Source: Nonlabens sp. MB-3u-79 (GTDB lineage Bacteria > Bacteroidota > Bacteroidia > Flavobacteriales > Flavobacteriaceae). Taken from it: a stretch of DNA of 64,000 nt. Shown here one piece after another: positions 7,438-62,196 of this stretch. The stretch is taken from assembly GCF_002831625.1 (NCBI RefSeq), contig NZ_CP025116.1, forward strand, positions 1,116,001-1,180,000, in the 5' to 3' direction. The number at the start of each line of letters is the position of its first letter. Within the stretch, counting starts at the first letter, position 1. Below the pieces are notes generated by a model that did not search any database, was not told the origin of the DNA, and saw only the letters and a list, made by a program, of their open reading frames with translations. The position numbers and the translations under genes are program-made.

Positions 7438-9384
7438 TTAGCGTACCATTAGCTTCTTGGTGACCGCACCTTTTTCTGAGGTAAGTTTAATAAAGTAGAT
7501 ACCACTGATTTGTGGCGCAGTAAAAACCATCGCAGGACGAGCCTCCAGTTGGTCTTTATAGTCCAGGATCAATCTTCCATGAAGGTCATATATTTTAAGA
7601 TCTGTCAAAACACTAGTGTCTGTAATAATTTGAAAAGTATTGGAAGTAGGGTTGGGAAATAGTTGAAATTCCGCTTTCGCGAAAGCGTCACCTATACCAA
7701 GTGTAGCCGTATTATTCTTGCTTATAGTGGCAACATCTGGATCTATTTCTACCGTAGCAACGTTAAAAGGAACGCTGATGCTAAAATTTTCATTCAAATT
7801 ATTGATGTTCAATACCTCCCATTGTTCTTGACCAGTGACTCCAGTAATTTTAACAGGAAGCGCTACTTCAAATAAACTCACAGAGCTATGGCTGGGCAGC
7901 TGCTGGTAGTTCATTGTGATTCCAGTAGGTGTTGCTGACCAGTTGATCGTATGCTGCGGATAGCCTTCTCCGTAAATCCAGTCGGCAAAAAATTCGGTCA
8001 GATTTTGCCCACTAGTAGCTGCTGCTATAGCTTTAAAATCAGGTGTTTTGGCATAATTAAAAGAAAGTTGTGGGTCGTTCAAGTAGTTTTGAAGGGTTTG
8101 TTGGAAATCGGTGTTCCCTATTTTTTCACGCAACATATGCAATACCATGCTGCCTTTATAATAAGATAGATTGCTATTAAACACACGTCCTACACTTAAG
8201 GTGTCTTGTGCGGGAACATAAACACTGCCGTTAGTAGAAGTGGTGGCTCTATTATTTGCATTCATACGCCAAGACTTAAAACTGCTGCTTCCGTCCAGAT
8301 GCTCTACCGTCATTCCTGTAGCATAAGTAGCAAAACTCTCGTTGAGCCATATGTCTTGCCAGCTGCCACAAGTTACCTTATTCCCAAACCACTGATGAGC
8401 CAGCTCGTGCGCGATCAAACCCCGACTAAATCCGCCCATAAAACTAATAGTGGTGTGCTCCATGCCGCCACCCCAACCGAATTGTGCATGACCGTATTTT
8501 TCACTTCTATAAGGATAGGCTCCAAAGGTGGTTTCAAAGAAGTTCATAATAGGAACGGTCACCGCAGTACTTGCTTGTGCAGTTGCGAGATCTTCGGGAT
8601 ACACATAATTATCTATTGGTAAAGCGGTTGCGCCGCTACCTACCAGATCGGTATATCTGGCATAATTGGTTACCGCAATGGCAATCAGATAAGCTGGAAT
8701 AGGGTAGTTGTGTTGCCATCTGAATCTTTTTCCAGTGGGTGTTGTTGTTTCAGAAAGGAGCAAGCCATTAGAAACGCCTGTGTTTCCTGCGGGGGTATGT
8801 ATAATGACTTCTGTTTGATCAATTTTATCGTTGAGGTCTTGTTTGCAGGGCCACCAGGCTTTGGCGCCATAAGGCTCAGAAAGAGTCCATATAATTCCAG
8901 CATTATTATGCGTGGTTTGCGCAAAACTTCCAAATCCGCTTGCTATAGGGTTACCGCTATAGGTCACACTTAGACTATCTAAAACAGCATTATTTTGCGT
9001 TGCCGGCAGGTCGATAACCAATTCGTCATTTCCATTATTGATATAGGTAAGTGGGACACCTCTTTGTGTTACTTGGCTTACATTCATATTATTAGCCAAG
9101 TCAAATGTTATTTGATTGATGGCACCCACCGCTTCAAAATGGGAGGTTACCGTTCCAGAAATAATCGCAACATCTGGGTCTGTATCGAGTTCTAGACGTA
9201 CGTATTTAAGATCGTAATTTGCAGTAGCTTGATGTATACTGCGTGAGGACGGGTTGATCAAAGAAGATTTTAAGAGACAAGCATCCACACCTGGCTGTGG
9301 ATAAGTGGTAGTTGTTTGTTGTGATGCTGCTTTCGCGAAAGCGAGAATAAAACAAACTAAAATTAGTATTTTAAAATTCTTCAT
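7438..9384 (-). CDS. M1 family aminopeptidase with type IX secretion sorting domain
   Basis: The 648-residue protein has a signal peptide (first about 21 residues), an M1 catalytic core and a C-terminal type A sorting domain. Zinc ligands are H326, H330 and E349 in HELAHQWFG and the later NESFATY; the exopeptidase loop is GGGMEH (305-310), the Bacteroidota variant of GAMEN. The last about 75 residues (FQLFPNPTSN, LKIYDLHGR, SGIYFIKL, KKLMVR) are the signal for type IX secretion, so the enzyme is exported to the surface or medium and likely digests peptides. The gene carries two exact copies of the GCTTTCGCGAAAGC palindrome, one encoding AFAKA at the signal-peptide cleavage region and one just before the sorting domain. 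Confidence 0.93.
   Translation of the reverse strand: MKNFKILILVCFILAFAKAASQQTTTTYPQPGVDACLLKSSLINPSSRSIHQATANYDLKYVRLELDTDPDVAIISGTVTSHFEAVGAINQITFDLANNMNVSQVTQRGVPLTYINNGNDELVIDLPATQNNAVLDSLSVTYSGNPIASGFGSFAQTTHNNAGIIWTLSEPYGAKAWWPCKQDLNDKIDQTEVIIHTPAGNTGVSNGLLLSETTTPTGKRFRWQHNYPIPAYLIAIAVTNYARYTDLVGSGATALPIDNYVYPEDLATAQASTAVTVPIMNFFETTFGAYPYRSEKYGHAQFGWGGGMEHTTISFMGGFSRGLIAHELAHQWFGNKVTCGSWQDIWLNESFATYATGMTVEHLDGSSSFKSWRMNANNRATTSTNGSVYVPAQDTLSVGRVFNSNLSYYKGSMVLHMLREKIGNTDFQQTLQNYLNDPQLSFNYAKTPDFKAIAAATSGQNLTEFFADWIYGEGYPQHTINWSATPTGITMNYQQLPSHSSVSLFEVALPVKITGVTGQEQWEVLNINNLNENFSISVPFNVATVEIDPDVATISKNNTATLGIGDAFAKAEFQLFPNPTSNTFQIITDTSVLTDLKIYDLHGRLILDYKDQLEARPAMVFTAPQISGIYFIKLTSEKGAVTKKLMVR
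7673..7686. repeat. GCTTTCGCGAAAGC palindrome, exact
   Basis: Within the M1 peptidase gene, encoding AFAKA just before the sorting domain. Confidence 0.95.
9329..9342. repeat. GCTTTCGCGAAAGC palindrome, exact
   Basis: Second copy in the M1 peptidase gene, encoding AFAKA at the end of its signal peptide. Confidence 0.95.
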
Positions 9385-9445
9385 TTTATAGGGGGTTTCT
9401 AGTAAGGAAAGTTACAAAACATTCAATATTAGGATAATTAGGTCG

Positions 9446-9453
9446 TAATTTTG
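9446..9453 (+). promoter_or_regulatory. Candidate -7 element (TAATTTTG) for the SCO1 gene
   Basis: TAATTTTG fits the Bacteroidota -7 consensus TAnnTTTG and lies 17 bases before the ATG at 9470. No convincing TTG -33 element is seen at the expected distance. Confidence 0.45.
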
Positions 9454-9469
9454 CAAAAAAGTATCAATT

Positions 9470-10156: not shown

Positions 10157-10257
10157 TCTTGTAGAAAGGCAGCGACTGGCAGGTATTCCTATATTTTTGT
10201 TTTATATTTTTTTTAAAGTATATTTATATTCACTTCACGTTCAACTAATATTCTATT

Positions 10258-11190: not shown

Positions 11191-11210
11191 AAGAGCATTT
11201 CATTTATTGA

Positions 11211-11354: not shown

Positions 11355-13766
11355 TTAAAGTCCGAGTTCTTTTTTAGTGGTGCGATTTTGTTCTTCAGGA
11401 GTAGACAGCTCTTTATTTGCCAGTCTGAAATTACCAAAGTTATAAGTAAAGCCCACACTTACTGTTCTCGTTTCTGGCAAGCTCAGGTAATAATTATCTT
11501 GATTTAAATAACGGGTAGTCATTCTTTGGTTTTGGGTTCTAAAAATATCAGTAAAGGCCAGAGATAGTTGTGCTCTTCTATTCCAAAGACTCTTATTAAA
11601 ACTCATGTTAACGCCTAAAGAATCTCCCCATTCATAAGATCCAAAGAGTATACTAGATAAATAGGTGACGTCTACATCCATAGATAAAGTTCTGTTATCT
11701 GCAAGGTTGAATCGGTTAAAGGAGTTGAGATAGAATCCAGTAGTAGAATTGACTACATCTACACCTCCAGATTGAACTGCCCTGGTTTCATTTTCCATGT
11801 AGAATAAACTCGTACTGATCCCAGTATACCAGTTGCTATTTACATATTGATATGTGGCAGCGTCTATGCTATACTGTAATTCATAGTTTAAATTGATGCT
11901 CTGTGAGTTCAATTCATTAGTTGCATTGTTTTGAAAAGGGACATCGCTCAACAAGTTTTCGGCATACAGAAAATAAGTATTGATAAACCAGGCATTCTTA
12001 TGATTCCAGCTCAAGGTGAATTTGTTATTGAATGCTGGTTGTAGATTAGGATTTCCAGTATTTGTATTAAAGTCATTTATAAAAGTACTGAACGGATTTA
12101 AATCTGCGTATCTAGGTCTGTCAATGGATCTTTTATAGCTTAAGGTGTAGGAATTGTTCTCATTAAATTGGTTGGTCAGTGCTAGATTAGGGAATAATTC
12201 TAGGTATTCTTGAGTATTCACTTGGCCTTGAGACTGTGAGACTCCGTCTACATCAGTTTGCTCTGCTCGCAACCCAGCAGCAAAGGACCATTTTTCCCAA
12301 CTGCGATCTAGTTGCGCATAGGCAGCATAAATATTTTCGTCATAAAGGAATAAATCAGATAATGCGGGGTTAAGAATAGAGCCACTATCGGTATCAAAGA
12401 AATTTTGGGAACTGCTTGAAGCAACGTTGGAGAATTTTAAACCAGTACTAAAGGCATAATTTCCTAAGGAGGTATTGTAATCTAATTTTGCCGTATAAAT
12501 ATCGATTTCTTGAAGGGCATCAGTTAAAAAACTGTTTGTTCCTGTTGTAGCCTGATTGTTGTCAAAAAAGCGGGTGCTTAAATCTTGCAGTTGATCACTA
12601 TTGGTAAAAATATAATTTCCCTCTAAAGTTAGAGAAGCACCGTTCTCATTAAGACTATGTTGCCACTGTGCGTTTACAAAACCATTAGTTCTATTTTTCT
12701 CAAATTGAGAGTCGGTGTTAAATCCAGAAAAGCTGGTCCCTGCATGAGGTAAAATGAGCGTTTGGTTTTGATAATTGACATCGTTATTTTGGTTGGTGCT
12801 AAAATTACCAGAAAAGCTTAAAGCATTTTTCTTATCTACGCTAATATCAACAATGGTATTGAAGTTATGAGCGGCACTGCGATCTACTTTTTCTAGTTCA
12901 GTGAACCACCTCTCTGACCTACTGCCATCTGGATTAAAAAAGCCTATTTGTGAGTCGTCAAACTTGAAGTCTTTTCTAGGGCTAAAGTTGTAATTGGCAT
13001 ACACATTAAGCCAGTTATTCTTGTAAAAATGTGAGGTTCCTATCTGGTATTTAGTAAAGGTTCCTTGAGTCCACGAACCGTTTACATTTCCTTTATAACC
13101 TAATGAAATGCCTTTAGAAGTATTGATGTTGATCACAGCAACACCTTCTGCATCATAACTCGCCGGCGGATTTGTAATTACTTCTACACTCTTGATATTG
13201 TCAGCGCTATAACTGCGTAGTAAGCTGCTCAGTTCATCATTGGTCAGGTACACACGCTTGTTATTGATATAAATTACTGCGGGCGAATTTTGAACCATGT
13301 AGGTTCCTTCCATTTCAAAGACCCCTGGAGTCTTTTTTAACAGGTTTTCAGTGTTACCAATGCTTAAGATGGTATTTTCTACATTAAAAACTAATCTATC
13401 AGTCTTTTTATCTATGGTAGGTTTGCTTGCGGTTACCACAACCGCCTCAAGTTGTTCGGGGTCTTCAGCAAGATAGAAATCTCCTATTTTCCCTGAGCCA
13501 GTAATGTTTTGCTTTCGCGAAAGCGTAACATATCCAACAGAAGAAATCTGAAAAGTATATGCTCCTTGTTGAAAATCTTTGAATTCAAACTCTCCTTTTT
13601 CATCTGTTGCTGTTGCTTTGTAAAAGGTACTGTCTGGCATTTTAAAAGTCACAACGGTGGCGTAGGGTATAGCTACTTTCTCTTTAGTCCATACGTTTCC
13701 TGTAAGATCATTTTGTGCAGTCGTACTAAGGACTAGGAGAAAAATAAAAAAGGGTAAATATTTCAT
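11355..13766 (-). CDS. TonB-dependent receptor-like outer-membrane beta-barrel protein
   Basis: The 803-residue protein has a signal peptide, a carboxypeptidase-regulatory-like domain (about 19-105, GNVWTKEKVAIPYATV to GDFYLAEDP), a plug-like region (about 110-215, with KTPGVFEMEG and IKSVEVITNPPASYDAEG) and a long beta-barrel of aromatic-rich strands ending in FTYNFGNF before a polar tail. It belongs to the outer-membrane barrel family often annotated as TonB-dependent receptors in Flavobacteria. The cargo is unknown; no SusD partner is adjacent. An exact palindrome at 13511 encodes part of TLSRKQN at the end of the first domain. Confidence 0.85.
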   Translation of the reverse strand: MKYLPFFIFLLVLSTTAQNDLTGNVWTKEKVAIPYATVVTFKMPDSTFYKATATDEKGEFEFKDFQQGAYTFQISSVGYVTLSRKQNITGSGKIGDFYLAEDPEQLEAVVVTASKPTIDKKTDRLVFNVENTILSIGNTENLLKKTPGVFEMEGTYMVQNSPAVIYINNKRVYLTNDELSSLLRSYSADNIKSVEVITNPPASYDAEGVAVININTSKGISLGYKGNVNGSWTQGTFTKYQIGTSHFYKNNWLNVYANYNFSPRKDFKFDDSQIGFFNPDGSRSERWFTELEKVDRSAAHNFNTIVDISVDKKNALSFSGNFSTNQNNDVNYQNQTLILPHAGTSFSGFNTDSQFEKNRTNGFVNAQWQHSLNENGASLTLEGNYIFTNSDQLQDLSTRFFDNNQATTGTNSFLTDALQEIDIYTAKLDYNTSLGNYAFSTGLKFSNVASSSSQNFFDTDSGSILNPALSDLFLYDENIYAAYAQLDRSWEKWSFAAGLRAEQTDVDGVSQSQGQVNTQEYLELFPNLALTNQFNENNSYTLSYKRSIDRPRYADLNPFSTFINDFNTNTGNPNLQPAFNNKFTLSWNHKNAWFINTYFLYAENLLSDVPFQNNATNELNSQSINLNYELQYSIDAATYQYVNSNWYTGISTSLFYMENETRAVQSGGVDVVNSTTGFYLNSFNRFNLADNRTLSMDVDVTYLSSILFGSYEWGDSLGVNMSFNKSLWNRRAQLSLAFTDIFRTQNQRMTTRYLNQDNYYLSLPETRTVSVGFTYNFGNFRLANKELSTPEEQNRTTKKELGL
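13511..13524. repeat. GCTTTCGCGAAAGC palindrome, exact
   Basis: Within the receptor gene (minus strand), encoding LSRKQ between the first domain's strands. Confidence 0.95.
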
Positions 13767-15675: not shown

Positions 15676-15689
15676 GCTTTTGCGAAAGC
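15676..15689. repeat. Palindrome variant, one mismatch
   Basis: GCTTTTGCGAAAGC in the intergenic gap between lepA and its terminator. Confidence 0.7.
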
Positions 15690-17726: not shown

Positions 17727-17740
17727 GCTTTCGCGAAAGC
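17727..17740. repeat. GCTTTCGCGAAAGC palindrome, exact
   Basis: Intergenic, between the antiporter and the Usp-SulP operon; preceded by TGTTCC, an outer-arm extension. Confidence 0.95.
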
Positions 17741-20929: not shown

Positions 20930-21784
20930 ATGAAAATACACGCTATTGAATCCGGTAATTTTAAGTTGGACGGCGGTGCCATGTTTGGCGTAGTGCCTAA
21001 AACTTTATGGACCCGTACAAATCCAGCAGACGCAAACAACATGATTGATATGGCAGCACGATGCCTTCTTATCGAGAATGGAGACCGATTGACACTTATA
21101 GACACCGGCATGGGAAATAAGCAGTCAGAGAAGTTTTTTGGCTACTATTATATGGACCATAGATTTGATCTGGACAGCTCACTAAAGGAAAAGGGTTTTT
21201 CCAGGAATGATATTACAGACGTATTTTTGACGCACTTGCATTTTGATCATTGTGGAGGCGTGATTAAGAAAAGTAGTACAGGAGATTTTTTAGAGCCCGC
21301 TTTCGCGAAAGCGATATGCCACACCAACTCCAGTCACTGGAACTGGGCCGCAGAGCCCAACGACAGGGAGAAGGCTAGTTTTTTAACAGAAAATATAAAG
21401 CCTATAGAAGAAAATGGACAGTTGAACTTTATTTCTCAAAAAGGAACTTATGAGAAAAAAAACGAAATGGACTTTGATATTCTATTTGTAGACGGTCATA
21501 CAGAAAAAATGATGATTCCTCATATTCATATGGGAGAAAAGACATTTGTGTTTATGGCAGATTTACTGCCTACAGTAGGACACTTGCCATTACCTTATGT
21601 GATGGGTTACGATACCAGACCTTTACTGACACTAGGAGAAAAAGAAAAATTTCTTAATGAGGCGGCAACAAAAGGTTATTACCTGATACTGGAGCATGAC
21701 CCTTTTAACGAAATCATCACGGTAAAACACACCGATAAAGGGGTGAGACTAGATCAAACCTTTACTTTTAAAGACTTATTTTAA
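20930..21784 (+). CDS. MBL-fold metallo-hydrolase
   Basis: The protein has 284 residues. The metal motif HLHFDH (in VFLTHLHFDHCGG, about residues 102-107) and a later H in LFVDGHTEKM, plus a D in MADLLPT, fit the metallo-beta-lactamase fold. The length and the substrate-loop layout resemble lactonase-like quorum-quenching or general esterase members, but the substrate is not predictable. An exact palindrome at 21299 encodes AFAKA just after the motif. The subtilase gene starts 25 bases downstream, so the two may be cotranscribed. Confidence 0.88.
   Translation: MKIHAIESGNFKLDGGAMFGVVPKTLWTRTNPADANNMIDMAARCLLIENGDRLTLIDTGMGNKQSEKFFGYYYMDHRFDLDSSLKEKGFSRNDITDVFLTHLHFDHCGGVIKKSSTGDFLEPAFAKAICHTNSSHWNWAAEPNDREKASFLTENIKPIEENGQLNFISQKGTYEKKNEMDFDILFVDGHTEKMMIPHIHMGEKTFVFMADLLPTVGHLPLPYVMGYDTRPLLTLGEKEKFLNEAATKGYYLILEHDPFNEIITVKHTDKGVRLDQTFTFKDLF
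21299..21312. repeat. GCTTTCGCGAAAGC palindrome, exact
   Basis: Within the metallo-hydrolase gene, encoding AFAKA. Confidence 0.95.
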
Positions 21785-29756: not shown

Positions 29757-32700
29757 ATGAAGTTGAAGTTGTTTTTTATTCTGGTGTTTTGCTGCTCAAT
29801 AGGTGGTGCACAAGAATACAGCAACTTGAAAAAAAAACGTCTTGCAGTTAGGGATTCGATCTCCCTAGATTCTATAAGTATCAGTCCAGCCTATTTTAAA
29901 GTAGTGGATAAAACAGGTAAGACTATCGATAGTTCTAGGTACAATATTAACTTTTCCAGCTCCATTTTAACCTTTAAAAATAAAACTGAAATAAGTGCCG
30001 ATTCTATAGATGTCACCTATTTGCCACTGCCTGATTTTCTTACCAAGACCTATCAATTCTACGACCCAAGTATTATTTTAGATAATGACAGTAGGCAAGA
30101 ACAATTAGTAGCTTTACAGCAACCTACAGCAGTAAACACCTTTATTCCTTTTGATGGTTTGCAAACTTCTGGAAGTATTACCAGAGGCGTGCGGGTGGGA
30201 AATAACCAAAACAGTGTAGTAGATTCTGAACTGGATTTAAGAATCACAGGAAAGCTAAGCGATAAAGTATCACTGAGAGCTTCCATTCAAGATGCAAACG
30301 TACCGCAAACCCAAAATGGATACTCTCAACGACTGGATGAATTTGACCAAATATTTATAGAACTGTACAGTGAAGACTGGAATATCAGGGCAGGAGACGT
30401 AGACTTGATACAAGAGAATTACCAATTCAATAATTTTTCCAAACGCGTTCAGGGAATTTCGGGACAGGTGCGATTTAATGGAGACGACTCTTCTGGTTAT
30501 GCAGGAGCTTCAGGAGCTTTAGTTAGAGGGACTTTTAACATCAGCCGATTCACTGGTCAGGAAGGGAATCAAGGTCCGTATAAGCTCACCGGCCAAAACG
30601 AAGAGTTGTTTATTCTAGTAGTTTCTGGTAGTGAACGTGTTTTTGTAAATGGTGTTCCTTTAAAAAGAGGAGAAAATCAAGATTACGTGATCGATTACAA
30701 TGCCGGGGAAGTGCGTTTTACTCCTACATTCCCTATTACTAGTGAAATGCGTATTTCTATAGAATACCAATACAGCGAGCGTAATTTTACCAGATTTATA
30801 GGATATGGGACAGGTGGCTTTAAGTCTGATAAATTTCAAATAGATTCTTATGTCTACACAGAAACCGATGCAAAAAACCAGCCATTACAACAAAACCTAA
30901 GTGAAGATCAAGTAGCTATTTTAGCAACTGCTGGAGATGACCGAGATCTAGCCATTGCGCCCAGTGCCATACCAGATGAGTTTTCTGAAAATCAAATTCT
31001 TTATCGTAGAGAGGTACTGAACGGTGAAGAGCGGTTTGTTTTTTCTCAAGATAGAACGCAGCAACTTTTTAATGTGAGATTCAGCTTTTTAGGTGAAAAT
31101 CAAGGGGATTACCGACTCATTAATGATCAGGCTATTGCAAATATTTATGAGTATATCGCCCCTATAAATGGGGTGTCTCAGGGAAGTTACGATCCAATCA
31201 TCCAGTTATTTACTCCAGAAATTTTAACTATTGCTGGAATTAAAGCTAGTTATGAGGCTGCTACAGGCACTAAATTATTTACAGAGCTGGCAGCCAGTAA
31301 TAAGGATTTAAATAAATTTTCTTCTATTGATGATGATGACAATAAAGGTGTAGCAGCAAAACTCGCTCTAATTCAACAACTACTCAAAAAAGACAGTTTA
31401 CAGTCTTTAAATGTGACGCTTAATACCGATTACATTCAAGAGAATTTTAGAAATGTAGAACGTGTTTATAATATTGAATTTAATCGAGACTGGAATATAG
31501 AAACAACGCAAGGAAGCCAGTTGTTCACCACGTTGGGACTTAATTATCAATTAGATTCTACCATAACGGCTTCGTACCGATTGGAGCATTTAGAATTTGA
31601 TAATTTTTATAATGGAAATCGTCATGAAATTGCTGCTACTTATCAAGACAGTTTATGGCAGGCTCGCTTTCGCGGAAGCGTACTAAGCACAAAATCTACA
31701 GAACAAGAGTCTGAATTTAATAGAGTAAATGCTGACGTATTAAGAAAAATCAACAACTACTATGTAGGGACGCGATTAGAAAGTGAAAATAATCAGCAAC
31801 GACTTACTGCTACAGATGAGCTTACTGGTCTATCTCAAAAATTCACTGGATATGAAATTTATGCAGGACGAGGTGATACCACAACGACCTTTGTGGAGAT
31901 AGGCTATAGAAATAGAACCAATGACAGTTTGAGAGATGGCATCCTTTCTAGGGTAAATAGTTCTAATAATTATTACATCAAATCTCAACCTATTAAAAAT
32001 AAGGTGAGTAGTTTGCGTATTTATGCTAACTATAGAAAATTAAAAAGTGCTCAAGAGGGATTTTCAGATGAGGTTTCTTTTAATTCTAGACTACAGTATA
32101 AACGTAAGATTTATGACGGTAAAATATTGTGGAATACTACTTATGAGACCAATAGCGCTCGTATCCCAAGACAAGATTTTACTTATGTAGCTGTAAATCC
32201 TGGACAAGGAACTTTTACATGGATCGATTATAATGACGATGGCATTCAGGACCTCAATGAATTTGAAGTAGCTCAATTTCAAGACCAGGGCAGCTTTGTG
32301 AGAGTCTTGTTGCCCAATCAGGTTTTCTTACCCACGCATCAAAATAAATTTTCTCAAACCTTGACCCTCAACCCGATTTCTTGGACTGATGAAAAGGGGT
32401 ATAAAAAAGTGCTGTCTAGATTTTATAATCAGACCAGTTACCTCATTGACCGCATGGTCGCTAGAGAAGGAGAAAATTTTGACTTGAATCCATTTCAAAG
32501 CAGCGACAATCAACTGGGATTGAACCTTAGCTTTAGAAACAGTCTCTTCTTTAACAGAGGCAAGCAGTATTTTACTACTAATTACACCTATTTAAGTACT
32601 GCAAATGAGAACTTACAAAGCATAGGGAGTATATCCAATGAGATAGAAAGTCATCAATTTCGATTTTTACATAAGATCGAAGACACGTGGTTGGTAACCA

Positions 32701-33770: not shown

Positions 33771-34090
33771 GCAGACTGAAGTCTGCCGCTGGGAATCTTT
33801 TTTGTCGCTTTCAGCGTTTTTTTATGTAGCGGAATAAATTCCGCTTTTTTCACTTCAATGCGACTTAATTTTTAATCTATTATCGCGTTCAGCAGACTGA
33901 AGTCTGCCGCTAGGGATTTATTTTGTCGCTTTCAGCGTTTTTTTATTTAGCGGAATAAATTCCGCTTTTTTCACTTCAATGCGACTTATTTTTTAATCTA
34001 TTATCTCCTTCAGCAGACTGAAGTCTGCCGCTAGGGATTTATTTTGTCGCTTTCAGCGTTTTTATTTAGCGGAATAAATTCCGCTTTTTC
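33771..34090. repeat. Tandem 121-bp hairpin repeat, 2.6 copies
   Basis: Units start at 33771, 33892 and 34013 with an exact 121-bp step; the third is cut after about 78 bases. Each unit holds two hairpins: GCAGACT-GA-AGTCTGC and GCGGAAT-AA-ATTCCGC. Copies differ at a few bases only. A decayed relative is at 34480-34540. No protein is encoded. Confidence 0.9.
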
Positions 34091-34120
34091 TAGTGTGTTT
34101 CTTCCAGAAAATTTAATTTT

Positions 34121-34399
34121 TCCTCATTCCTCATTCCTCATTCCTCATTCCTCATTCCTCATTCCTCATTCCTCATTCCTCATTCCTCATTCCTCATTCC
34201 TCATTCCTCATTCCTCATTCCTCATTCCTCATTCCTCATTCCTCATTCCTCATTCCTCATTCCTCATTCCTCATTCCTCATTCCTCATTCCTCATTCCTC
34301 ATTCCTCATTCCTCATTCCTCATTCCTCATTCCTCATTCCTCATTCCTCATTCCTCATTCCTCATTCCTCATTCCTCATTCCTCATTCCTCATTCCTCA
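34121..34399. repeat. 7-bp tandem repeat (TCCTCAT), about 40 copies
   Basis: The 279-bp block is nearly pure TCCTCAT repeats, a minisatellite. As 7 is not a multiple of 3 the block translates in all frames as a 7-residue repeat; this should not be taken as a gene. Confidence 0.95.
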
Positions 34400-34605: not shown

Positions 34606-35976
34606 TTATGAAAACAAATATCTAACTAAATCTTCAATTTTTGAAAAGGCTTGTACTTCAGTTCCTATATTTTTAAAGGTTTGTTTTCCTGGAGCGATAA
34701 AAACTTTTTCAAAACCTAGTTTTGCCACTTCATTCACTCGTTGTTCCATACGGCTTACCGGTCGTATTTCGCCGCCTAATCCCACTTCGGCACTGAAGCA
34801 GTGTTGTGAAGAAAGTTCTATATCAAAATTAGAAGAAAGAATAGCAGCTACAACGGCAAGATCTATTGCCGGGTCATCGACGGTGATTCCCCCAGTAATG
34901 TTGAGAAAAACATCTTTTTGACCTAGTTTAAAACCAGCTCTTTTTTCTAAGACGGCAAGGATCATGTTCAATCGTTTCAGGTTGTAACCGGTCGCACTAC
35001 GCTGTGGTGTTCCATAAACGGCTGTACTTACTAATGCTTGAACTTCTATCATGAGCGGTCGCATTCCTTCCATAGTAGCAGCAATAGCAGTACCGCTTAG
35101 ATTTGCCCCGCGTTGTGAGATTAAAATTTCACTAGGATTAGTCACTTCTCTCAATCCATGCGCTAGCATTTCATAGATTCCTATCTCATGTGTACTTCCA
35201 AAACGGTTTTTAAGAGCTCTCAAAATCCTATAGGTGTGATTGCGATCTCCTTCAAATTGCAGGACCGTATCCACCATGTGTTCTAGAATCTTAGGTCCAG
35301 CAATATTCCCGTCTTTAGTAATATGACCTATTAGAAGTACTGGGGTATTGGTTTCTTTAGCAAATTTGATGAGTTCACTGGTGCATTCTCTAATTTGTGA
35401 AACACTACCGGGCGAGCTTTCAATATGATCGGTCTGTAGGGTTTGAATAGAGTCAATAATCAAGACATCTGGTTCTACCTCAGTAATTTGTCTGAAGATA
35501 TTTTGGGTTTTGGTCTCGGTAAGAATATAGCAGTTTACGGCTTCTTTTTTTATGCGATCAGCACGCATTTTAATTTGTTGTGCACTTTCTTCTCCAGACA
35601 CATAAAGTGTTTTGTAGGGCAAGTTGAGGCATACTTGGAGCAGCAATGTAGACTTCCCTATTCCTGGTTCTCCACCTAAAAGGGTGATGGATCCAGGAAC
35701 GAGTCCACCACCTAGAACTCTGTTAAACTCTGCATTTGTAGTGTCCATTCTAGGACTTTCGGCAGCATTTATTTTTGAGATGAGTTGTGGTTGAGGGGCA
35801 CGCTTTCGCGAAAGCGGAACATCTGCAACACTACTTTCCCAAGATTTTTTAGTTTCTTTTTGAACGATCTCTTCTACCAGAGTGTTCCATTCTTTACAGG
35901 TCAAACACTGTCCTTGCCACTTGGAATGTTGGCCGCCACAATTCTGGCAAAACCAAGTCGTTTTCACTTTGGCCAT
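34606..35976 (-). CDS. radA: DNA repair protein RadA
   Basis: The 456-residue protein helps process recombination intermediates. It has the four-cysteine zinc finger (C10, C13, C24, C27), a RecA-like ATPase with Walker A GGEPGIGKST (101-110), Walker B-type VLIIDSIQ, the RadA-specific KNRFGS (about 255) and a C-terminal Lon-like domain. The linker has an exact palindrome giving PLSRKRAP between finger and ATPase. Its ATG lies one base after the stop of the esterase-like gene, so they are read together. Confidence 0.96.
   Translation of the reverse strand: MAKVKTTWFCQNCGGQHSKWQGQCLTCKEWNTLVEEIVQKETKKSWESSVADVPLSRKRAPQPQLISKINAAESPRMDTTNAEFNRVLGGGLVPGSITLLGGEPGIGKSTLLLQVCLNLPYKTLYVSGEESAQQIKMRADRIKKEAVNCYILTETKTQNIFRQITEVEPDVLIIDSIQTLQTDHIESSPGSVSQIRECTSELIKFAKETNTPVLLIGHITKDGNIAGPKILEHMVDTVLQFEGDRNHTYRILRALKNRFGSTHEIGIYEMLAHGLREVTNPSEILISQRGANLSGTAIAATMEGMRPLMIEVQALVSTAVYGTPQRSATGYNLKRLNMILAVLEKRAGFKLGQKDVFLNITGGITVDDPAIDLAVVAAILSSNFDIELSSQHCFSAEVGLGGEIRPVSRMEQRVNEVAKLGFEKVFIAPGKQTFKNIGTEVQAFSKIEDLVRYLFS
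35802..35815. repeat. GCTTTCGCGAAAGC palindrome, exact
   Basis: Within radA (minus strand), encoding LSRKR; followed on the plus strand by GGAACA. Confidence 0.95.
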
Positions 35977-37182: not shown

Positions 37183-38166
37183 TTATTTACCTGAAAGACT
37201 GCCTTTCAAAGATAATAATAGAAGAGATAGTGACCCATAAACTAATACCAGAATGGTTTGGGACAACCATAAAATCCATCCAAAAGAGGTTCCTAATGGT
37301 TCTGAAATACCAAAAACCAGCAGTACCTGAGCTATAAAATAGGGATAAGCACCAAAGCCACCATTAGTAAAGGCTACCGCAAAACTACCAGCTACAAAGG
37401 CACATAAGATGGCGCTTATAGGTATAGTTTCTATTCCAGGTATAGCAAAAATACTAACGTAAAACATGAGCAAATACATGCCCCAAATAAACAGGGTGTG
37501 AAGGAAGTACCACCATTTTTTCTTCATGGTCCAAATGGTCATAAATCCTTCTTTCATGCCTAGGATAAAACTTTTTAGTCTGTTAAAAAGCTGAATACGT
37601 CTCGAGATGAAAACAATCAAAATAACTAGTACTAGAAATATACCAGAATAAAGCAGGATTTTTGCGGGTTCCGTTTTCGCGAAAGCGTCATCTATACGAG
37701 TCTTAAAGAAGTTAACAATAGCATCTCCTGCAGTAAGAACGGCGACTGCTGTAATGATTAAAAGAACAATAAGGTCTAGCACGCGCTCTGCAATAATGGT
37801 TCCTATAGCTTTATCCATAGGCACCTGGTCAGAGCGATTAACAATAGCCGCTCTTGAAATTTCACCACTGCGAGGAATGATCAGGTTCATGGCATAACCA
37901 GCTCCTATTGCCATAACATTAGTTATGAATTTAGGGGTTGCGCCTAAAGTTTCAAGCATGTAATTCCATCTCCATGCTCTAGATAAATGACTTAAAAAAG
38001 CAAAAAACAGAGAAAGAATGATCCATGCATAGTTTGCATCTAGAAGATAAGAGTAGATTTTATCTCTCTCTAGATCTGTAAACTGGTTGTAGGAATAATA
38101 AATAAGGAAAAAGCCCAATAATAAGGGCAGGGCAATTTTTAATATTTTGAAAATGACTTTTTTCAC
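37183..38166 (-). CDS. Lysylphosphatidylglycerol synthase TM-region/UPF0104 family membrane protein
   Basis: The 327-residue protein has about eight hydrophobic segments and the family markers SHLSRAWRWNYMLE, RSGEISRAAIVNR, AERVLDLIVLL and TNGGFGAYPY. The family includes flippase or transporter domains of MprF and glycan transport partners; a single membrane domain here has no catalytic part. The substrate is unknown. A variant palindrome encodes DDAFAKTEP in a loop near residue 162. It sits four bases after panD. Confidence 0.85.
   Translation of the reverse strand: MKKVIFKILKIALPLLLGFFLIYYSYNQFTDLERDKIYSYLLDANYAWIILSLFFAFLSHLSRAWRWNYMLETLGATPKFITNVMAIGAGYAMNLIIPRSGEISRAAIVNRSDQVPMDKAIGTIIAERVLDLIVLLIITAVAVLTAGDAIVNFFKTRIDDAFAKTEPAKILLYSGIFLVLVILIVFISRRIQLFNRLKSFILGMKEGFMTIWTMKKKWWYFLHTLFIWGMYLLMFYVSIFAIPGIETIPISAILCAFVAGSFAVAFTNGGFGAYPYFIAQVLLVFGISEPLGTSFGWILWLSQTILVLVYGSLSLLLLSLKGSLSGK
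37673..37686. repeat. Palindrome variant, one mismatch
   Basis: GTTTTCGCGAAAGC in the flippase-like membrane gene, encoding AFAKT; preceded by GGTTCC. Confidence 0.75.
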
Positions 38167-48075: not shown

Positions 48076-49197
48076 ATGCTTCCAGATAAACTACAAGCTC
48101 TTTTAGGTATGCGTCACTTCTCAGGAAGTTTGCGCAAACTCACTGTAAATAAAGGTCTTGTAGATTTTGCATCTAACGATTACCTGGGCTTTTCTAAATT
48201 GCCACAATCAGAAACTTATTCCTCTAATGGCGCTACGGGTAGCCGGCTTATTTCTGGACACAGTGAGCTACATGATCAGGTAGAAGCACAAATTGCCCAG
48301 TTTCACAATACGCCAGCGGCATTGTTGTTTAATTCTGGTTATGACGCAAACATAGGACTCATTCCTGCGTTAACAGACCGTGCCGATTTGATTCTTTTTG
48401 ACCGGTTGGTTCATGCCAGTATACGCGACGGAATCCAGCTTTCTCAAGCTAAATCCCTAAAATACCGTCATAACGATTTAGATCATCTCGAGATTTTATT
48501 GTCTAAATTCAGTGAGGAAGAAGAACGCCAGGTGTATGTCATTACAGAGTCTGTTTTCTCTATGGATGGCGATATGCCGGACCTTGAGAAATTGGTAGCA
48601 TTAGTAAAGCGATTTGAGAATGCGCACTTGATTTTGGATGAGGCCCATGCCTTGGGAGTTATAGGAAAAAAAGGTGCTGGTCTCGCCCAAGAACTGGATG
48701 TAGAAAATGACATTTTTGCTCGAGTGGTCACTTTTGGCAAAGGCTTGGGATGTCATGGCGCCGCTATTTTAGGAAGTGAAGATCTCAAGGAATATTTGAT
48801 CAATTATGCCCGTAGTTTTATTTATACAACGGCGCTTCCAGAGCATTCGTTGCGATCTATTGCATATGGTTACCGCACTTTGAGTCAGAGTGAAGATGCC
48901 GTTTCTCGATTAATCCATAACATTGCACTCTTTAATACATTAGTGGTGCAAAATGGTTTGAGATTACGCTTTCGCGAAAGCGAGACCGCCATCCAAGTAT
49001 GTATCATTCCAAAAAACGACAAAGTAAAAAAGGCAGCAAGTGTATTAAAAGAAAATGGCTATGATGTACGAGCCATTCTATCTCCTACAGTAAGTCAGGG
49101 AGAAGAGCGATTGCGAGTGTGTTTACACAGTTTTAATACAGAAAAAGAAATGGCAGACCTACTGAAACTGCTTGCCAAAACCCTAAAAAACCTATGA
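48076..49197 (+). CDS. bioF: 8-amino-7-oxononanoate synthase
   Basis: The 373-residue PLP enzyme joins pimeloyl thioester and L-alanine, the first committed step of biotin ring assembly. Motifs: ASNDYLGFSK, GATGSRLISGHSELH, VITESVFSMDGD, LDEAHALGVIG and the PLP lysine in VTFGKGLGCHGAAI. An exact palindrome at 48968 encodes RFRES in the C-terminal part. Its stop overlaps the next gene's ATG by four bases. Confidence 0.95.
   Translation: MLPDKLQALLGMRHFSGSLRKLTVNKGLVDFASNDYLGFSKLPQSETYSSNGATGSRLISGHSELHDQVEAQIAQFHNTPAALLFNSGYDANIGLIPALTDRADLILFDRLVHASIRDGIQLSQAKSLKYRHNDLDHLEILLSKFSEEEERQVYVITESVFSMDGDMPDLEKLVALVKRFENAHLILDEAHALGVIGKKGAGLAQELDVENDIFARVVTFGKGLGCHGAAILGSEDLKEYLINYARSFIYTTALPEHSLRSIAYGYRTLSQSEDAVSRLIHNIALFNTLVVQNGLRLRFRESETAIQVCIIPKNDKVKKAASVLKENGYDVRAILSPTVSQGEERLRVCLHSFNTEKEMADLLKLLAKTLKNL
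48968..48981. repeat. GCTTTCGCGAAAGC palindrome, exact
   Basis: Within bioF, encoding RFRES. Confidence 0.95.
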
Positions 49198-51633: not shown

Positions 51634-51703
51634 AGGATTCTTTTTCTACAATTCATTCTAAGTCTAACTTCTTTTGACGATTTTTGCAAGAGTTACAAAG
51701 CCA

Positions 51704-52825
51704 GTGAAAAACCCTATTTACATCAACGATGCAGCGATGATTGCTGCGGTAGATTCATTTACGAGTCAAGAGTCAGCTCATTTTTTTGAGAAAAAAAATA
51801 AAGCTTGGATCAGTCCTATTTCAAAAGTAAAGGAAGACCAATTGCAAGCCTTTTTAAGAGATCATGAGGTTTATAAATCTTTGGATCGCAGTGTGCAACT
51901 GGCACTTTTTGCAGCAAGATCCTTAAAGAATATCCCAGTGCAGACGGCCGTAAACATTGGCTCTAGTCGTGGTGCTACTGGATTGTGGGAGGAGTATCAT
52001 TCTCGCTTTCGCGAAAGCGGAACAGTTCCAACAGCAACTTCTCCACTAACTACTTTGGGGAATATCTCTAGTTGGGTGGCTCAAGATTTGAGATTGAAAG
52101 GAACAGCTTTTTCTCATAGCATTACTTGTGCAACGGCATCGCATGCCATTCTCAATGCTATCGCTTGGTTAGAAAGTGGTATGGCAATGAGTTTTATCGC
52201 TGGAGGAAGTGAGGCACCACTAACTGATTTTACCATAGCCCAAATGCAAGCTTTGCGCATTTATTCAAGAGATTCTTCTCCGTATCCATGTAAGTCATTG
52301 GATTTAGATAAATCCCAAAACTCGATGATTTTAGGAGAGGGAGCAGCCTGTTTTTTACTTTCTAAAGAAGACAAAAATAGTCTTGCCAAAATCACTGGAT
52401 ACGGCAGTGCTATCGAAAAATTAAACAGTGCCACATCTCTTACGCAAAGTGGACTGTGCCTACAAGAATCGATGACACAGGCGATACAGCATATAGACAT
52501 GGAAACGGTAGATGCGATTATAACACACGCGCCTGGAACTATTAAAGGTGATAAAGCAGAGTTTACAGCTATAAAAGCAGTTTTTGGAGAACGTTACCCT
52601 TATTTGTGTAATAACAAATGGCAATTAGGTCACGCTCTTGGGGCCAGTGGTGCTCTTAATCTAAGAATGGCAATCGAAATGCTACAATCAGAAATGATAT
52701 TTAAAATTCCTTACTTAGAAGAATCCTTGGCAAATCCTCGGGGAGATCTAAGAACGCCTAAGCGTATTCTAATTAATGCAACTGGATTTGGAGGTAATGC
52801 GGTGAGTTTGTTGATAGAGCGTTAG
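51704..52825 (+). CDS. Beta-ketoacyl synthase (KAS I/II-like) in the biotin cluster
   Basis: No ATG is near the start; GTG at 51704 (MKNPIYINDAAM) is favoured, with a TTG at 51674 possible. The product (373 residues) has the condensing fold: active Cys in SITCATASHAI, first His in THAPGTIKGDKAE (aligned without gap to AHGTSTPAGD), second His in LGHALGASGALN. The triad is intact but the second loop differs from canonical HGTST. An exact palindrome at 52005 encodes RFRES. No bioC or bioH lies near, so this KAS may help make the pimeloyl chain. Confidence 0.85.
   Translation: MKNPIYINDAAMIAAVDSFTSQESAHFFEKKNKAWISPISKVKEDQLQAFLRDHEVYKSLDRSVQLALFAARSLKNIPVQTAVNIGSSRGATGLWEEYHSRFRESGTVPTATSPLTTLGNISSWVAQDLRLKGTAFSHSITCATASHAILNAIAWLESGMAMSFIAGGSEAPLTDFTIAQMQALRIYSRDSSPYPCKSLDLDKSQNSMILGEGAACFLLSKEDKNSLAKITGYGSAIEKLNSATSLTQSGLCLQESMTQAIQHIDMETVDAIITHAPGTIKGDKAEFTAIKAVFGERYPYLCNNKWQLGHALGASGALNLRMAIEMLQSEMIFKIPYLEESLANPRGDLRTPKRILINATGFGGNAVSLLIER
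52005..52018. repeat. GCTTTCGCGAAAGC palindrome, exact
   Basis: Within the KAS gene, encoding RFRES; followed by GGAACAG. Confidence 0.95.
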
Positions 52826-55026: not shown

Positions 55027-55503
55027 TTAATTAGGTATGAGCTCTACTGTTTTGGCATAAACCAGATGGCTTTCCCAACCTCTATAGAGAAGGTAATCGG
55101 CTAGTTTTTTACGCTTCTTGTACTTATCGGTTTCTGTTGTGAGTTGTTGTAACCGCTTTCGCGAAAGCGTCTCAAAAGCAATTTCATAATCATCATTAGA
55201 AATCTCTTTAAGACCTAATTTTATGCTACGCTCGTTCAATCCTTTCATTTTAAGTTCGCGTACGATACGAACTCTGCCCCATTTTTTAATACGAAATTTT
55301 CCTCGAGCAAAAGACTCGGCATAGCGCGTCTCATTCAAGAATTTATGATGAATCAAATGTGGGATGATTTCATCTATGGCGAGCTGAATCATCCCCATAC
55401 TTTTCAATTTATCTTCCACGTCTTTATGACAGCGCTCTTGATAAGCGCAGTACCTCTCTATGGAACGAGTAGCTTCTTCTACGGTGTAGGAGTCTTTGGG
55501 CAT
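55027..55503 (-). CDS. recX: Regulatory protein RecX
   Basis: The 158-residue RecX family protein inhibits RecA filaments. It has the helical repeats with YCAYQERCHKDVEDKLKS, FARGKFRIKKWGRVRI, LADYLLYRGWESHLV. An exact palindrome at 55155 gives TLSRKRL between repeats. It is the last gene of hemB-short ORF-recX. Confidence 0.92.
   Translation of the reverse strand: MPKDSYTVEEATRSIERYCAYQERCHKDVEDKLKSMGMIQLAIDEIIPHLIHHKFLNETRYAESFARGKFRIKKWGRVRIVRELKMKGLNERSIKLGLKEISNDDYEIAFETLSRKRLQQLTTETDKYKKRKKLADYLLYRGWESHLVYAKTVELIPN
55155..55168. repeat. GCTTTCGCGAAAGC palindrome, exact
   Basis: Within recX (minus strand), encoding LSRKR. Confidence 0.95.
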
Positions 55504-56812: not shown

Positions 56813-57310
56813 CCCTTTTGGTTGCTCGTTACGCTCGTCTCCAATACCGATATTCATCGGCACAAGCTCTGTTTTCCCTTTGAAAAAGGGAAATGTTTTT
56901 ACTTGTTTTTTTAGATCTAGTGAGGTATCAATTGCCGCAGGCTTGTTTTTAAATTCAAGTTCAAGTTCATTTTTAAATCCAGTTTCTTAAGAAACGGCAC
57001 CCTTTAGGGCTGGGGAAAAGGTTTCACAGCTAGTTTGTATTTTTCTTTCTCAATCGCATAGCCCTTTTGGTTGCTCGTTACGCTCGTCTCCAATACCGAT
57101 ATTCATCGGCACAAGCTCTGTTTTCCCTTTGAAAAAGGGAAATGCTTTTACTTGTTTTTTTAGATCTAGTGAGGTATCAATTGCCGCAGGCTTGTTTTTA
57201 AATTCAAGTTCAAGTTCATTTTCAAATCCAGGTTTTTAAGAAACGGCACCCTTCAGGGCTGGGGAAAAGGTTTCACAGCTAGTTTGTATTTTTCTCTCTC
57301 AATCGCATAG
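56813..57310. repeat. 249-bp tandem repeat, two full copies
   Basis: Copies at 56813-57061 and 57062-57310 are nearly identical with an exact 249-bp period. Each holds hairpins CCGAT-ATTC-ATCGG and TTTCCCTTT-GA-AAAGGGAAA, direct AAGTTC repeats and the CACCCTTTAGGG module also seen at 34435. Confidence 0.92.
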
Positions 57311-57408
57311 CCCTTTTGGTTGCTCGCTACGCTCGCTCGTCGCCAATCTGTTATCTACTTCGGCAAGCTCAGCATTAAACAGATGAAAAAGGGAAATGCT
57401 TTTTTTAG
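57311..57408. repeat. Partial third copy of the 249-bp repeat
   Basis: It starts like the full unit (CCCTTTTGGTTGCTCG) and shares AAAAAGGGAAATGCTTTT but the middle is replaced by unrelated sequence. Confidence 0.8.
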
Positions 57409-59572: not shown

Positions 59573-59686
59573 TCGGGTTTACCGTATCCAGTTGCAGTAT
59601 GCAGATTTTGTCTGGTACTACTTGACTAATATTTTAAGTCAAAAACTGAATATTGAACACTGAGATTGTTAACCGTAATTTGAATA

Positions 59687-60550
59687 ATGAACACACAAGA
59701 ACTCCTTAAAAAAGTACGTAAGATCGAGATCAAAACTCGTCGCTTGAGCGATGCTGTTTTTGGTGGCGAGTACCACAGTGCTTTTAAAGGGCGCGGGATG
59801 ACTTTTAGCGAGGTGCGACAGTACCAGTTTGGAGATGATGTGCGTAACATCGACTGGAATGTAACTGCTAGATACAGTGAACCCTATATTAAAGTTTTTG
59901 AAGAGGAACGAGAGTTGACCTTAATGCTGGTAGCAGACATTAGCGGTTCGACATTTTTTGGAACTCAAGAGCAAATTAAAAAAGAAATTATAACAGAGTT
60001 GTGCGCCACACTAGCTTTTAGTGCCATGCAAAACAATGATAAAGTAGGATTACTGCTATTTTCAGACCGGGTAGAATTGTACATTCCGCCTAAGAAAGGA
60101 AAATTTCATATTCTTAGAATTATCAGAGAACTACTAGAATTCAAACCTCAAGGGGCCGGTACCGATGTGGCTGGAGCATTGAAGTTTCTAGCGGGTGTCC
60201 TTAAGAAAAAAGCCATCGTATTTGTGATGTCAGATTTCATGAGTGCCGACTATAAAAAAACGCTTCAAATTGCAGGTCGCAAGCACGATGTCACCGGAAT
60301 TAGAGTTTATGACCAGCGGGAGGCAGAAATGCCTAAAATGGGACTCGTGCAATTCAAAGATCAAGAAACAGGAGCCTCACAATTGATCAACACCAGCTCT
60401 AAATCGGCACGCATTACATATGCTGCTTATCACAAAGAATGTGCTGCTTATTTTAAAGATGCTTTCACAAGATCTGATGCAGGCGCAATACATTTAGAAA
60501 CACAAGAGAATTATACCAAGAAACTATTAGGATACTTTAAAGCACGATGA
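59687..60550 (+). CDS. DUF58 domain protein
   Basis: The 287-residue protein has the DUF58 signature GMTFSEVRQYQFGDDVRNIDWN and ARYSEPYIKVFEEERELT, followed by a VWA-like part (MLVADISGS). It is found with MoxR in aerotolerance and stress operons. The stop overlaps the next ATG by four bases. Confidence 0.93.
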   Translation: MNTQELLKKVRKIEIKTRRLSDAVFGGEYHSAFKGRGMTFSEVRQYQFGDDVRNIDWNVTARYSEPYIKVFEEERELTLMLVADISGSTFFGTQEQIKKEIITELCATLAFSAMQNNDKVGLLLFSDRVELYIPPKKGKFHILRIIRELLEFKPQGAGTDVAGALKFLAGVLKKKAIVFVMSDFMSADYKKTLQIAGRKHDVTGIRVYDQREAEMPKMGLVQFKDQETGASQLINTSSKSARITYAAYHKECAAYFKDAFTRSDAGAIHLETQENYTKKLLGYFKAR

Positions 60551-62196
60551 TCAAAAAATTAGTGTACATATCGTTTTTATTATGCATCGCCATAACTACT
60601 GCCCAAGATCAGACAAAGACGGAGGTAACTACAAAGGTAGATCGTGACTTGATTAAAATAGGTGAAGAAGTAAAACTAGGAATCAGCGTAGAAGCTGATT
60701 TAGGTGATTTGATCATTTTTCCTGAGCAACAAACTATGGGTGCTATGGAAGTGTTGCAGAGTTATCCGGTAGATAGTTTGAGAATTGCCGATAAAATCAG
60801 GTTGTTCAAGCAATATGGTATTACGCAATTTGACTCGGGGGATTACTGGGTCCCGCGATTGCAGATATTGAAAAACAACCGGAGTATACAATCAGACTCT
60901 GTATTGATAAGTGTGCGAGAAGTGGTTGTTGACACTACTAAACAAGGCATGTTTCCTATCAAGGATTCGGTAGATATAGCCGACAGATCTACTCTTTCCT
61001 ACAGCTGGATGTGGTGGTTATTGCTGTTAATTCCCGTGGTGATTGTAGTTGTTTTGCTTTCGCGAAAGCGGGAACAAAAAACCTATGAAGAAACCTTACA
61101 GCCTTATGAATGGACCAAATACCGTTTAAAATTACTGGACGATAGTGGCCGTCTCGAAAATCGGGAATGGAAGGAATATTATACAGAGCTTACGTACATT
61201 ATTAGAAGGTATATCGACTCTAAAGTCTACGGTCATTCCCTAGAAAGTACCACTGGACAGTTGATTAAGGAGCTCAAGATTGCCATGTCTGAAAAAGGTA
61301 TGCACATTACTGATAAAACACAATCCAGGCTAGAAGAAATCCTTCAAAAGGCCGATTTGGTAAAATTTGCTACTGCTGGTGGAGATGCCATAAGTGCTAA
61401 GGAAGACCGACAGCGTACCATGGAAATCATCAACAATATCCATCAAGTATTGCCGCCACCTACTGAAGAAGAACTCATGCAGGATGCGAGTTACAGACGT
61501 AAGCAAGAAATTAAAAAACGCACTCGCCACATCTCCATCGGTATCGCAGCTGGGCTTGTTGCTTTGGGAATAGCGGCTGGAATCTGGGGGTATATATCAG
61601 GATTTGATAATGTAACAGACAAGGTTTTTGGGAATTCTCAAAGAGCACTTACTGAGCAGATCTGGTTGACCAGTGAATACGGCATGCCACCCGTGCAGTT
61701 GAATTCGCCAGATATTTTAGTACGTCAGGACAGTACAAATTTAGGAGAAGTATTTAAACAGTTTGCTTCTTCAATTGACGAATTTGCATCTGGGGACATT
61801 GCCGACGACTTTTATATAGGTGTTATTACGTTTACTATGGGGTCAGCTGATGGTGATGCAGAAATTGAACTTGATCCAAAGGTGGTAAGAGATAATATGA
61901 CCATAATTTTAGATAAAATGGGAGCAACCGATATCTTGATGTTGGAAGATGAGGTAGAAATAGATGGAGTTAAAGGCGTGTCTTTAGAAGGCACTTATCA
62001 GCTCGGTAATGATGATTATGAGTACGATATTCTTATGATGTCTAATCGGGTAGGGATAGATCAAATCATCATCACCAATAAGAAAGATAATGAAGAAGAC
62101 GCTGATCGCAAATTTGGAAGAATTTTGAGAGAACGAGTGAGAAGCTCTATCGTATTTCCATCTTTTGATGATGGTAAAAAGAAGAAAGAAGAATGA
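60547..62196 (+). CDS. BatD-like/DUF4381-type Bat operon protein
   Basis: The 549-residue protein has a signal peptide, a periplasmic part (about 20-150), one membrane span (MWWLLLLIPVVIVVVLL, about 155-171), a cytosolic helical domain with EWKEYYTELTYIIRRYI, a second span (about 327-347) and a DUF2167-like tail. An exact palindrome at 61056 places SRKRE right after the first span. It is a Flavobacteria form of the Bat operon; its function is not defined. Confidence 0.85.
   Translation: MIKKLVYISFLLCIAITTAQDQTKTEVTTKVDRDLIKIGEEVKLGISVEADLGDLIIFPEQQTMGAMEVLQSYPVDSLRIADKIRLFKQYGITQFDSGDYWVPRLQILKNNRSIQSDSVLISVREVVVDTTKQGMFPIKDSVDIADRSTLSYSWMWWLLLLIPVVIVVVLLSRKREQKTYEETLQPYEWTKYRLKLLDDSGRLENREWKEYYTELTYIIRRYIDSKVYGHSLESTTGQLIKELKIAMSEKGMHITDKTQSRLEEILQKADLVKFATAGGDAISAKEDRQRTMEIINNIHQVLPPPTEEELMQDASYRRKQEIKKRTRHISIGIAAGLVALGIAAGIWGYISGFDNVTDKVFGNSQRALTEQIWLTSEYGMPPVQLNSPDILVRQDSTNLGEVFKQFASSIDEFASGDIADDFYIGVITFTMGSADGDAEIELDPKVVRDNMTIILDKMGATDILMLEDEVEIDGVKGVSLEGTYQLGNDDYEYDILMMSNRVGIDQIIITNKKDNEEDADRKFGRILRERVRSSIVFPSFDDGKKKKEE
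61056..61069. repeat. GCTTTCGCGAAAGC palindrome, exact
   Basis: Within the BatD-like gene, encoding LSRKR just after its membrane span; followed by GGGAACA. Confidence 0.95.

Follow-up and report, generated by a model that had tools for sequence, protein, structure and literature searches.

A 14-base palindrome kept exact and in place on Nonlabens chromosomes: a possible signal for recognition of self-DNA

We report that the 14-base palindrome GCTTTCGCGAAAGC, noticed in a 64,000-nucleotide stretch of the chromosome of Nonlabens sp. MB-3u-79 (contig NZ_CP025116.1, positions 1,116,001 to 1,180,000; hereafter the window), is a highly iterated, evenly spaced and sharply defined word in this genus and in a second lineage of the family Flavobacteriaceae, and we tentatively favour the view that it may be a palindromic signal for recognition of self-DNA in uptake or recombination, read by a dimeric or two-headed protein. 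The evidence for an exchange signal lies in copy number, presence throughout the genus, even spacing, exactness and conservation, and in the absence of the word from two phages and from a low-GC stretch; from these we infer a protein that reads the word, and genetic exchange, not the structure of the chromosome, as what selects for it.

The word is its own reverse complement over all 14 bases and occurs 563 times exactly in the host genome (one contig, 3,184,776 bases), against none for the reversed-pattern control. A sequence-only reading of the window had placed ten exact and four one-mismatch copies there, and all 14 positions were borne out; no two-mismatch site was found, and 100 shuffles gave a mean of 0.19 matches (maximum 2). 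Within 464 kb of the host genome, made up of the window and 20 further stretches, a mismatch census returned 91 exact, 12 one-mismatch, no two-mismatch and 18 three-mismatch words, whereas five order-3 Markov simulations of 464 kb gave no exact, no one-mismatch, 0–2 two-mismatch and 10–15 three-mismatch words. The comparison with a Markov background, a check set beforehand, thus leaves the counts far above expectation, and since exact copies are many and two-mismatch words none, the recognised word is close to all-or-none. Such strong over-representation of an exact short word is characteristic of the DNA uptake sequences (DUS) and uptake signal sequences (USS) of other bacteria. In 120 kb of G250, a genome of another genus (g225), one- and two-mismatch words are commoner than in the host. 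The palindrome is described nowhere in the openly licensed literature searched (for the word itself, and for related topics by title and the start of the abstract), which does not imply its absence from print.

Copies are also kept in place. Aligned to 14 congeners (72–89% identity over aligned DNA), the ten exact window copies yield 53 alignable instances, which share ancestry and do not count as 53 independent events; 46 of these are fully intact, and the other seven comprise two replaced by longer unrelated sequence (the copy at 9329 in G005 and G002), two with one mismatch and three with 3–5 mismatches (the copy at 21299 in G001, G003 and G016). In the reverse comparison, 55 of the 81 copies in 20 congeneric stretches fell within alignable blocks, their window counterparts being exact in 46 cases, one-mismatch in seven and gapped in two. 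With G005 set aside, core columns are 93–100% identical and single flank columns 41–89%, and ordinary 14-mers are identical in 2–7% of cases (26% in G005, which is closely related). For the 40 bases on either side of a copy, identity (63–92%) lies below the pair average in 11 of the 14 genomes, equals it in G014 and exceeds it in G005 and G009. GCTTTCGCGAAAGC combines even spacing with conservation in permissive core regions, as DUS and USS do.

Regarding spacing, the gaps between the first 100 copies of the host genome (its first 0.5 Mb) have a coefficient of variation (CV) of 0.69 against 0.99 for random placement, a value reached in one of 20,000 simulations, and five gaps are shorter than 1.5 kb where 25 are expected. 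The first 100 copies of G439 (genus g225) and of G234 (genus g209) give CVs of 0.74 (p 0.001) and 0.68 (0 of 20,000 simulations as low), and gaps below 1 kb number 2, 4 and 0 in G000, G439 and G234, respectively, against 17.7, 22.9 and 12.6 expected, with an overall density of one copy per 3.8–7.3 kb. Density is even round the chromosome (49 copies in 264 kb of the origin half and 42 in 200 kb of the terminus half), and no origin–terminus gradient was found in 21 sampled stretches (Spearman 0.07, p 0.76; origin set by the parS pair), which leaves the earlier candidate of a replication-guiding site unsupported. One stretch of 32.8% GC (L244, G000:C1:1740001-1760000) carries no copy and is perhaps foreign DNA.

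The footprint extends beyond the core as a set of preferences. In symmetrised flanks of 117 sites, C prevails at −1 (0.84), T is favoured at −3, −4 (0.70), −10 and −13, and C is avoided to about −18; the preferences are alike in 27 G250 sites (with A at −2 in addition) and weaker in 12 G234 sites. C and G flank both sides of seven of the ten exact window copies, as the sequence-only reading had said of most of them, and the 26-bp palindrome that it proposed dissolves into these arm preferences, there being no fixed unit. The exact 24-mer GTTCC-core-GGAAC occurs in 13 stretches among 84,980 species genomes, a scan from which the genome of the window and its nearest kin may be missing; 12 are in records titled Nonlabens and one in a metagenome-assembled genome titled Dokdonia. 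Each strand is G/T-rich 5' of the core for about 35 bases (0.56–0.71 in bins −34 to −2, 0.49–0.54 beyond; 110 sites, 600-base flanks), for copies in every frame and between genes, if more weakly in G234. At third codon positions of frame-0 copies (33 sites) the left side has T 0.52 and C 0.06 and the right side A 0.43 and G 0.09; since these positions are T/G-rich before the core and A/C-rich after it, codon usage is not the cause of the arm bias. No two copies need share the same flanks, the scores of the two half-sites correlate weakly (r 0.21), and no excess complementarity was found at flank positions −1 to −25 (largest z 1.9). The footprint fits a two-fold symmetric reader of double-stranded DNA, and the strand-specific G/T bias suggests a single-strand step, a RecA-like preference or deamination. 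An RNA hairpin or terminator is not supported, as the arms show no pairing covariation and few copies (three) are convergent.

With open reading frames (ORFs) taken from a simple caller, 63 of the 91 copies lie wholly within ORFs, where 85% would be expected, and 11 of the 14 window sites lie wholly within ORFs of at least 90 aa, in keeping with the earlier statement that copies are mainly inside genes. The coding copies fall in all three frames (33 as AFAKA, 14 as R/SFRES and 16 as LSRK), and the 28 outside ORFs or at their edges are arranged as 14 tandem, 11 divergent and 3 convergent, such spacers amounting to 27.7, 13.4 and 11.3 kb. In the parB region, seven coding copies could be compared whose gene is present in at least eight genomes (one in the ParB of Nonlabens, three of g225 and three of g209). 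In a variable stretch of ParB, four of five Nonlabens carry the exact word and the fifth one mismatch, and in 16 other genomes neither the DNA nor the peptide is related; the three g225 and three g209 copies were found in no other genome. Two of the g225 copies coincide with residues mostly or wholly missing from the others (20 of 20 and 12 of 12 genomes), and the remaining five of the seven (that of ParB, one of g225 and all three of g209) have no coincident gap. The three frames, the intergenic copies and a core conservation far above that of the flanks uphold the claim that DNA, not protein, is selected; an explanation by conserved residues fails, because wherever coding copies were compared the orthologues of other genera have neither the word nor the peptide that it encodes. 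In a 196-aa ORF of G234 (L277), a copy encodes AFAKA at the apparent end of a signal peptide.

Genome surveys covered the Flavobacteriaceae and other families of the same order. All 22 other Nonlabens genomes searched have 288–857 exact copies each. In a first survey of 59 genomes, 12 of the 13 other genera of the family had no copies and one had six, and 23 genomes of other families of the order all had none. In a family survey (397 genomes, 237 genera) at least one copy was found in 80 genomes, and hundreds only in Nonlabens, G250 (857) and G234 (408), the rest having 0–19. Genus g225 has 369–905 copies in 18 of 18 genomes; g209 is represented by the single genome G234, with no second g209 genome among 39 relatives drawn. 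Iteration of a palindrome across a clade, as described for the cyanobacterial HIP1, is therefore found here in Nonlabens and g225. Among the parB-region copies compared, none coincide between Nonlabens, g225 and g209, and a tree of four proteins of that region (21 genomes) joined G250 and G234 (100/100) with Nonlabens apart, a single clade of copy-rich genera being rejected at an approximately unbiased p (p-AU) of 0.029; the strength of this tree is moderate, with four proteins and a long Nonlabens stem. LepA was dropped as a tree marker because it is too conserved. Considering these two lineages, the reader would have been passed on horizontally or else have disappeared from several genera. 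A 20-kb stretch from each of 20 other genomes yielded no dispersed equivalent palindrome: TTGTAGCTACAA in G394 reached the threshold and is a tandem array, TTGGTACCAA in G107 reached it (3 against 0.088 expected) and has no exact copy in a second 18-kb stretch, and the remaining threshold-reaching words are AT-only.

In copy-poor genomes the copies are often clustered, with four in 11 kb of G122, five in 22 kb of G131, six on one contig of G033, and all 16 exact copies of G120 within about 78 kb of one contig (C3:32331-110029); those of G394 and G393 are single or scattered. G188 has nine exact and 20 one-mismatch copies on many contigs and G086 has 25 matches, six of them exact, and this excess of one-mismatch copies over chance could be the remnant of a lost system. 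Homologous DNA (72–95% identity in the pieces compared) is common to ten stretches, drawn from eight genomes that each belong to a different genus; a copy pair 933 bp apart recurs in six genomes, and 45 copies from copy-poor genomes have the same G/T arms. Judging from these sequences, we read this pattern as probable import from copy-rich donors, and GCTTTCGCGAAAGC may well be usable as a tracer of DNA flow, for it is present, arms unchanged, on DNA that several genera have in common. Loci L164-L169 and L180-L183 and the G120 stretch are DNA common to several Flavobacteriaceae genera with GCTTTCGCGAAAGC partly at shared positions; that in L167 encodes an AcrB-type pump, an outer-membrane efflux protein and a multicopper oxidase, a metal-efflux-like set. 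Two Nonlabens phages, with no integrase annotated and with hosts that may or may not carry the motif, have no copies in 71 kb. Among the IMG/VR matches listed, contigs with phage genes include one with at least three copies (baseplate hub, transposase, DNA transposition protein) and one with at least two (integrase, tape measure); most single hits in that scan may be due to chance.

We suggest that the two-fold symmetric word may be bound by a putative dimeric or two-headed reader protein, that DNA carrying it would be preferentially taken up or recombined, and that an allele with a perfect copy would then beat a copy-less allele at the same place, a bias that would keep copies exact, fixed in position and spread out, because one copy per few kb suffices. 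An exchange signal fits single-copy conservation better than a redundant structural role does, since the drive would act on each copy separately. To our knowledge, sequences that tag a bacterium's own DNA for uptake are known only from the Neisseriaceae and Pasteurellaceae. In passages of the published accounts, Neisseria uptake sequences are highly conserved, lie where the core genome is slightly more divergent, are absent from recently acquired genes and have a spacing that matches conversion fragments (PMC2397512); those of Haemophilus influenzae lie within ORFs in 65% of cases (PMC1939737) and are relatively evenly distributed (PMC7811141); and Riemerella columbina, which its describers place in the same family as Nonlabens, prefers its own DNA in transformation (PMC7965970).

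Several points weigh against an exchange signal. The known uptake sequences, as portrayed in part of PMC1939737, are not palindromes, so that GCTTTCGCGAAAGC lacks the non-palindromic character of DUS and USS; even spacing is not decisive, the same source noting that it has been linked to replication, repair or compaction as well; models based on single strands or RecA account for the G/T-rich arms no less well, and the flanks described for H. influenzae uptake sequences in a portion of PMC7811141 are AT-rich. PF00437, the type II secretion and type IV pilus ATPase family, is missing in eight of the ten copy-rich genomes searched (it was found in four of 28 genomes searched, two of them copy-rich), which makes uptake by a type IV pilus unlikely in those eight, and no receptor gene was identified, no search aimed at competence genes having been made. 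Because the word is palindromic and the pilus ATPase missing in most copy-rich genomes searched, we hold our preference for an exchange signal to a tentative one. A fuller version is conceivable and more doubtful: a palindromic self-DNA signal of the Bacteroidota, served by a receptor or recombination factor that needs no pilus, would have arisen or been transferred two or more times in the Flavobacteriaceae, and its hosts would donate tagged islands to other genera. Since two lineages keep a symmetric signal so strictly, the marking of self-DNA can be tested directly, with the palindrome as bait for its reader.

The two-fold symmetric core, arms without base-pair covariation, regular spacing with few gaps below 1 kb, uniform density in the origin and terminus halves and absence from one low-GC stretch would also be expected if a dimeric nucleoid or cell-division protein used the word every few kb to bridge, anchor or mark the chromosome. 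We nevertheless consider a chromosome-organising site rather unlikely, given that the conservation of single copies (46 of 53) is hard to square with some 560 redundant ones and that in G120, an otherwise copy-less genome, the copies fill a single stretch. An identity with parS was rejected: exact parS pairs about 1.9 kb apart exist separately in eight of the eight copy-rich genomes searched (exact pairs alone being counted, as a one-mismatch pattern gave 0–4 control hits per genome), the host pair lying at 961.6 and 963.5 kb, and GCTTTCGCGAAAGC is spread everywhere rather than in a few copies near the origin. All 26 genomes searched for a ParB_N protein have one. It is also formally possible, if improbable, that the word is a Chi-like hotspot active from both sides, at which a resecting enzyme would stop or change mode and leave G/T-rich 3' single strands that favour RecA. 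Known Chi sites are far shorter than a 14-base palindrome. The G/T-rich strands, seen in all frames and between genes and not due to codon usage, speak for this rival, as does the TG-rich pattern near Chi, thought to stabilise RecA filaments according to part of PMC3763553, and the copy density resembles that of Chi in Escherichia coli, given in passages of PMC1939737 as 1008 copies in about 4.64 Mb. By the same passages, however, exactness is far lower for Chi in E. coli, where 151 perfect copies are expected and 1008 present, and 3579 one-mismatch words are expected and 8855 present. RecC was found in none of the 26 genomes searched, a search that did not extend to AddAB, and RecBCD–Chi itself is accordingly disfavoured. 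If GCTTTCGCGAAAGC turns out to organise the chromosome or to act like Chi after all, its density and upkeep would be unusual for such a site.

We regard as still less credible a methylated palindrome like HIP1, kept by a methyltransferase with linked repair or restriction. The usual site of a methyltransferase is shorter than 14 required bases with weak arms, methylation by itself gives no reason for even spacing, and the word differs from that of HIP1, which is GCGATCGC; for it stand the over-representation of a palindrome within and between genes and the parallel with cyanobacterial HIP1, which is also over-represented and contains a methyltransferase site according to part of PMC1939737. 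Least credible of all is a very small mobile repeat, inserted whole at each site. The sequence-only reading had counted a self-spreading repeat among its candidates, and insertion may apply to the two of seven coding copies, both of g225, that sit where other genomes lack most or all residues; the idea is otherwise not favoured, considering that the other five have no coincident gap, that the copy at 21299 differs by substitutions without change of length in three congeners, and that flanks differ among copies.

The sites of the window are collected in the table. Also in the window are TTCCTCA repeated 40 times in tandem without a mismatch (34120-34399), adjoining a 121-bp repeat at 33771-34089, and a 249-bp tandem repeat of 2.1 copies with 97% matches (56813-57335).

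Table. Copies of GCTTTCGCGAAAGC in the window, with their state in whichever of the Nonlabens genomes (14 congeners for the exact copies) align at each site.
Copy	Position	Context	State in aligned congeners
Exact	7673..7686	ORF 7438-9384 (peptidase M1-like)	Exact in 4/4
Exact	9329..9342	Near 5' end of ORF 7438-9384	Exact in G013, G007, G010; longer unrelated sequence in G005, G002
Exact	13511..13524	Outer-membrane beta-barrel gene	Exact in 11/12; one mismatch in G010
One-mismatch	15676..15689	Intergenic	Exact in both (G010, G020)
Exact	17727..17740	Intergenic, between divergent ORFs	Exact in 11/11
Exact	21299..21312	ORF 20930-21784	Exact in 10/14; one mismatch in G007; 3-5 mismatches in G001, G003, G016
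One-mismatch	28161..28174	Gene edge	Exact in G013, G007, G014; 2 mismatches in G005; gap-cut in G015, G009
One-mismatch	31666..31679	ORF 29757-33164	Same variant in G005, G013, G007; 6 mismatches in G014
Exact	35802..35815	ATPase gene with KaiC/AAA and ChlI domains (read as RadA-like)	Exact in 3/3
One-mismatch	37673..37686	ORF 37183-38166	Exact in G005, G007; one different mismatch in G013
Exact	48968..48981	Aminotransferase gene	Exact in sole aligned congener, G005
Exact	52005..52018	ORF 51674-52825	Exact in sole aligned congener, G005
Exact	55155..55168	ORF 55027-55503	Exact in sole aligned congener, G005
Exact	61056..61069	ORF 60547-62196	Exact in sole aligned congener, G005

Finally, GCTTTCGCGAAAGC may be set beside the known dispersed words. 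The parS, Noc-binding and matS sites are two-fold symmetric protein-binding palindromes of 13–16 bases in systems with far fewer copies; the likeness lies in the symmetry, whereas parS is present separately in these genomes and GCTTTCGCGAAAGC follows no origin–terminus pattern. With HIP1 of cyanobacteria it shares the form of a short, highly iterated palindrome found throughout a lineage, and differs in having 14 bases rather than eight (HIP1 is called an octamer in a title cited by PMC1939737), symmetric arms that extend the core, and a scarcity of gaps below 1 kb. Chi is alike in its few-kb spacing and G/T-rich surroundings; unlike GCTTTCGCGAAAGC, whose arms flip composition at the dyad, it is a non-palindromic 5'-GCTGGTGG (in a passage of PMC1939737). 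Compared with the DUS and USS of Neisseriaceae and Pasteurellaceae, the core is palindromic and longer and has G/T-rich arms, most copy-rich genomes searched are without the pilus ATPase family, and the role in uptake is putative; in common with them, as far as excerpts of the cited accounts describe those systems, its exact copies number in the hundreds to thousands, are spaced rather evenly, stay in place in permissive regions of the core genome and are absent from recent imports.

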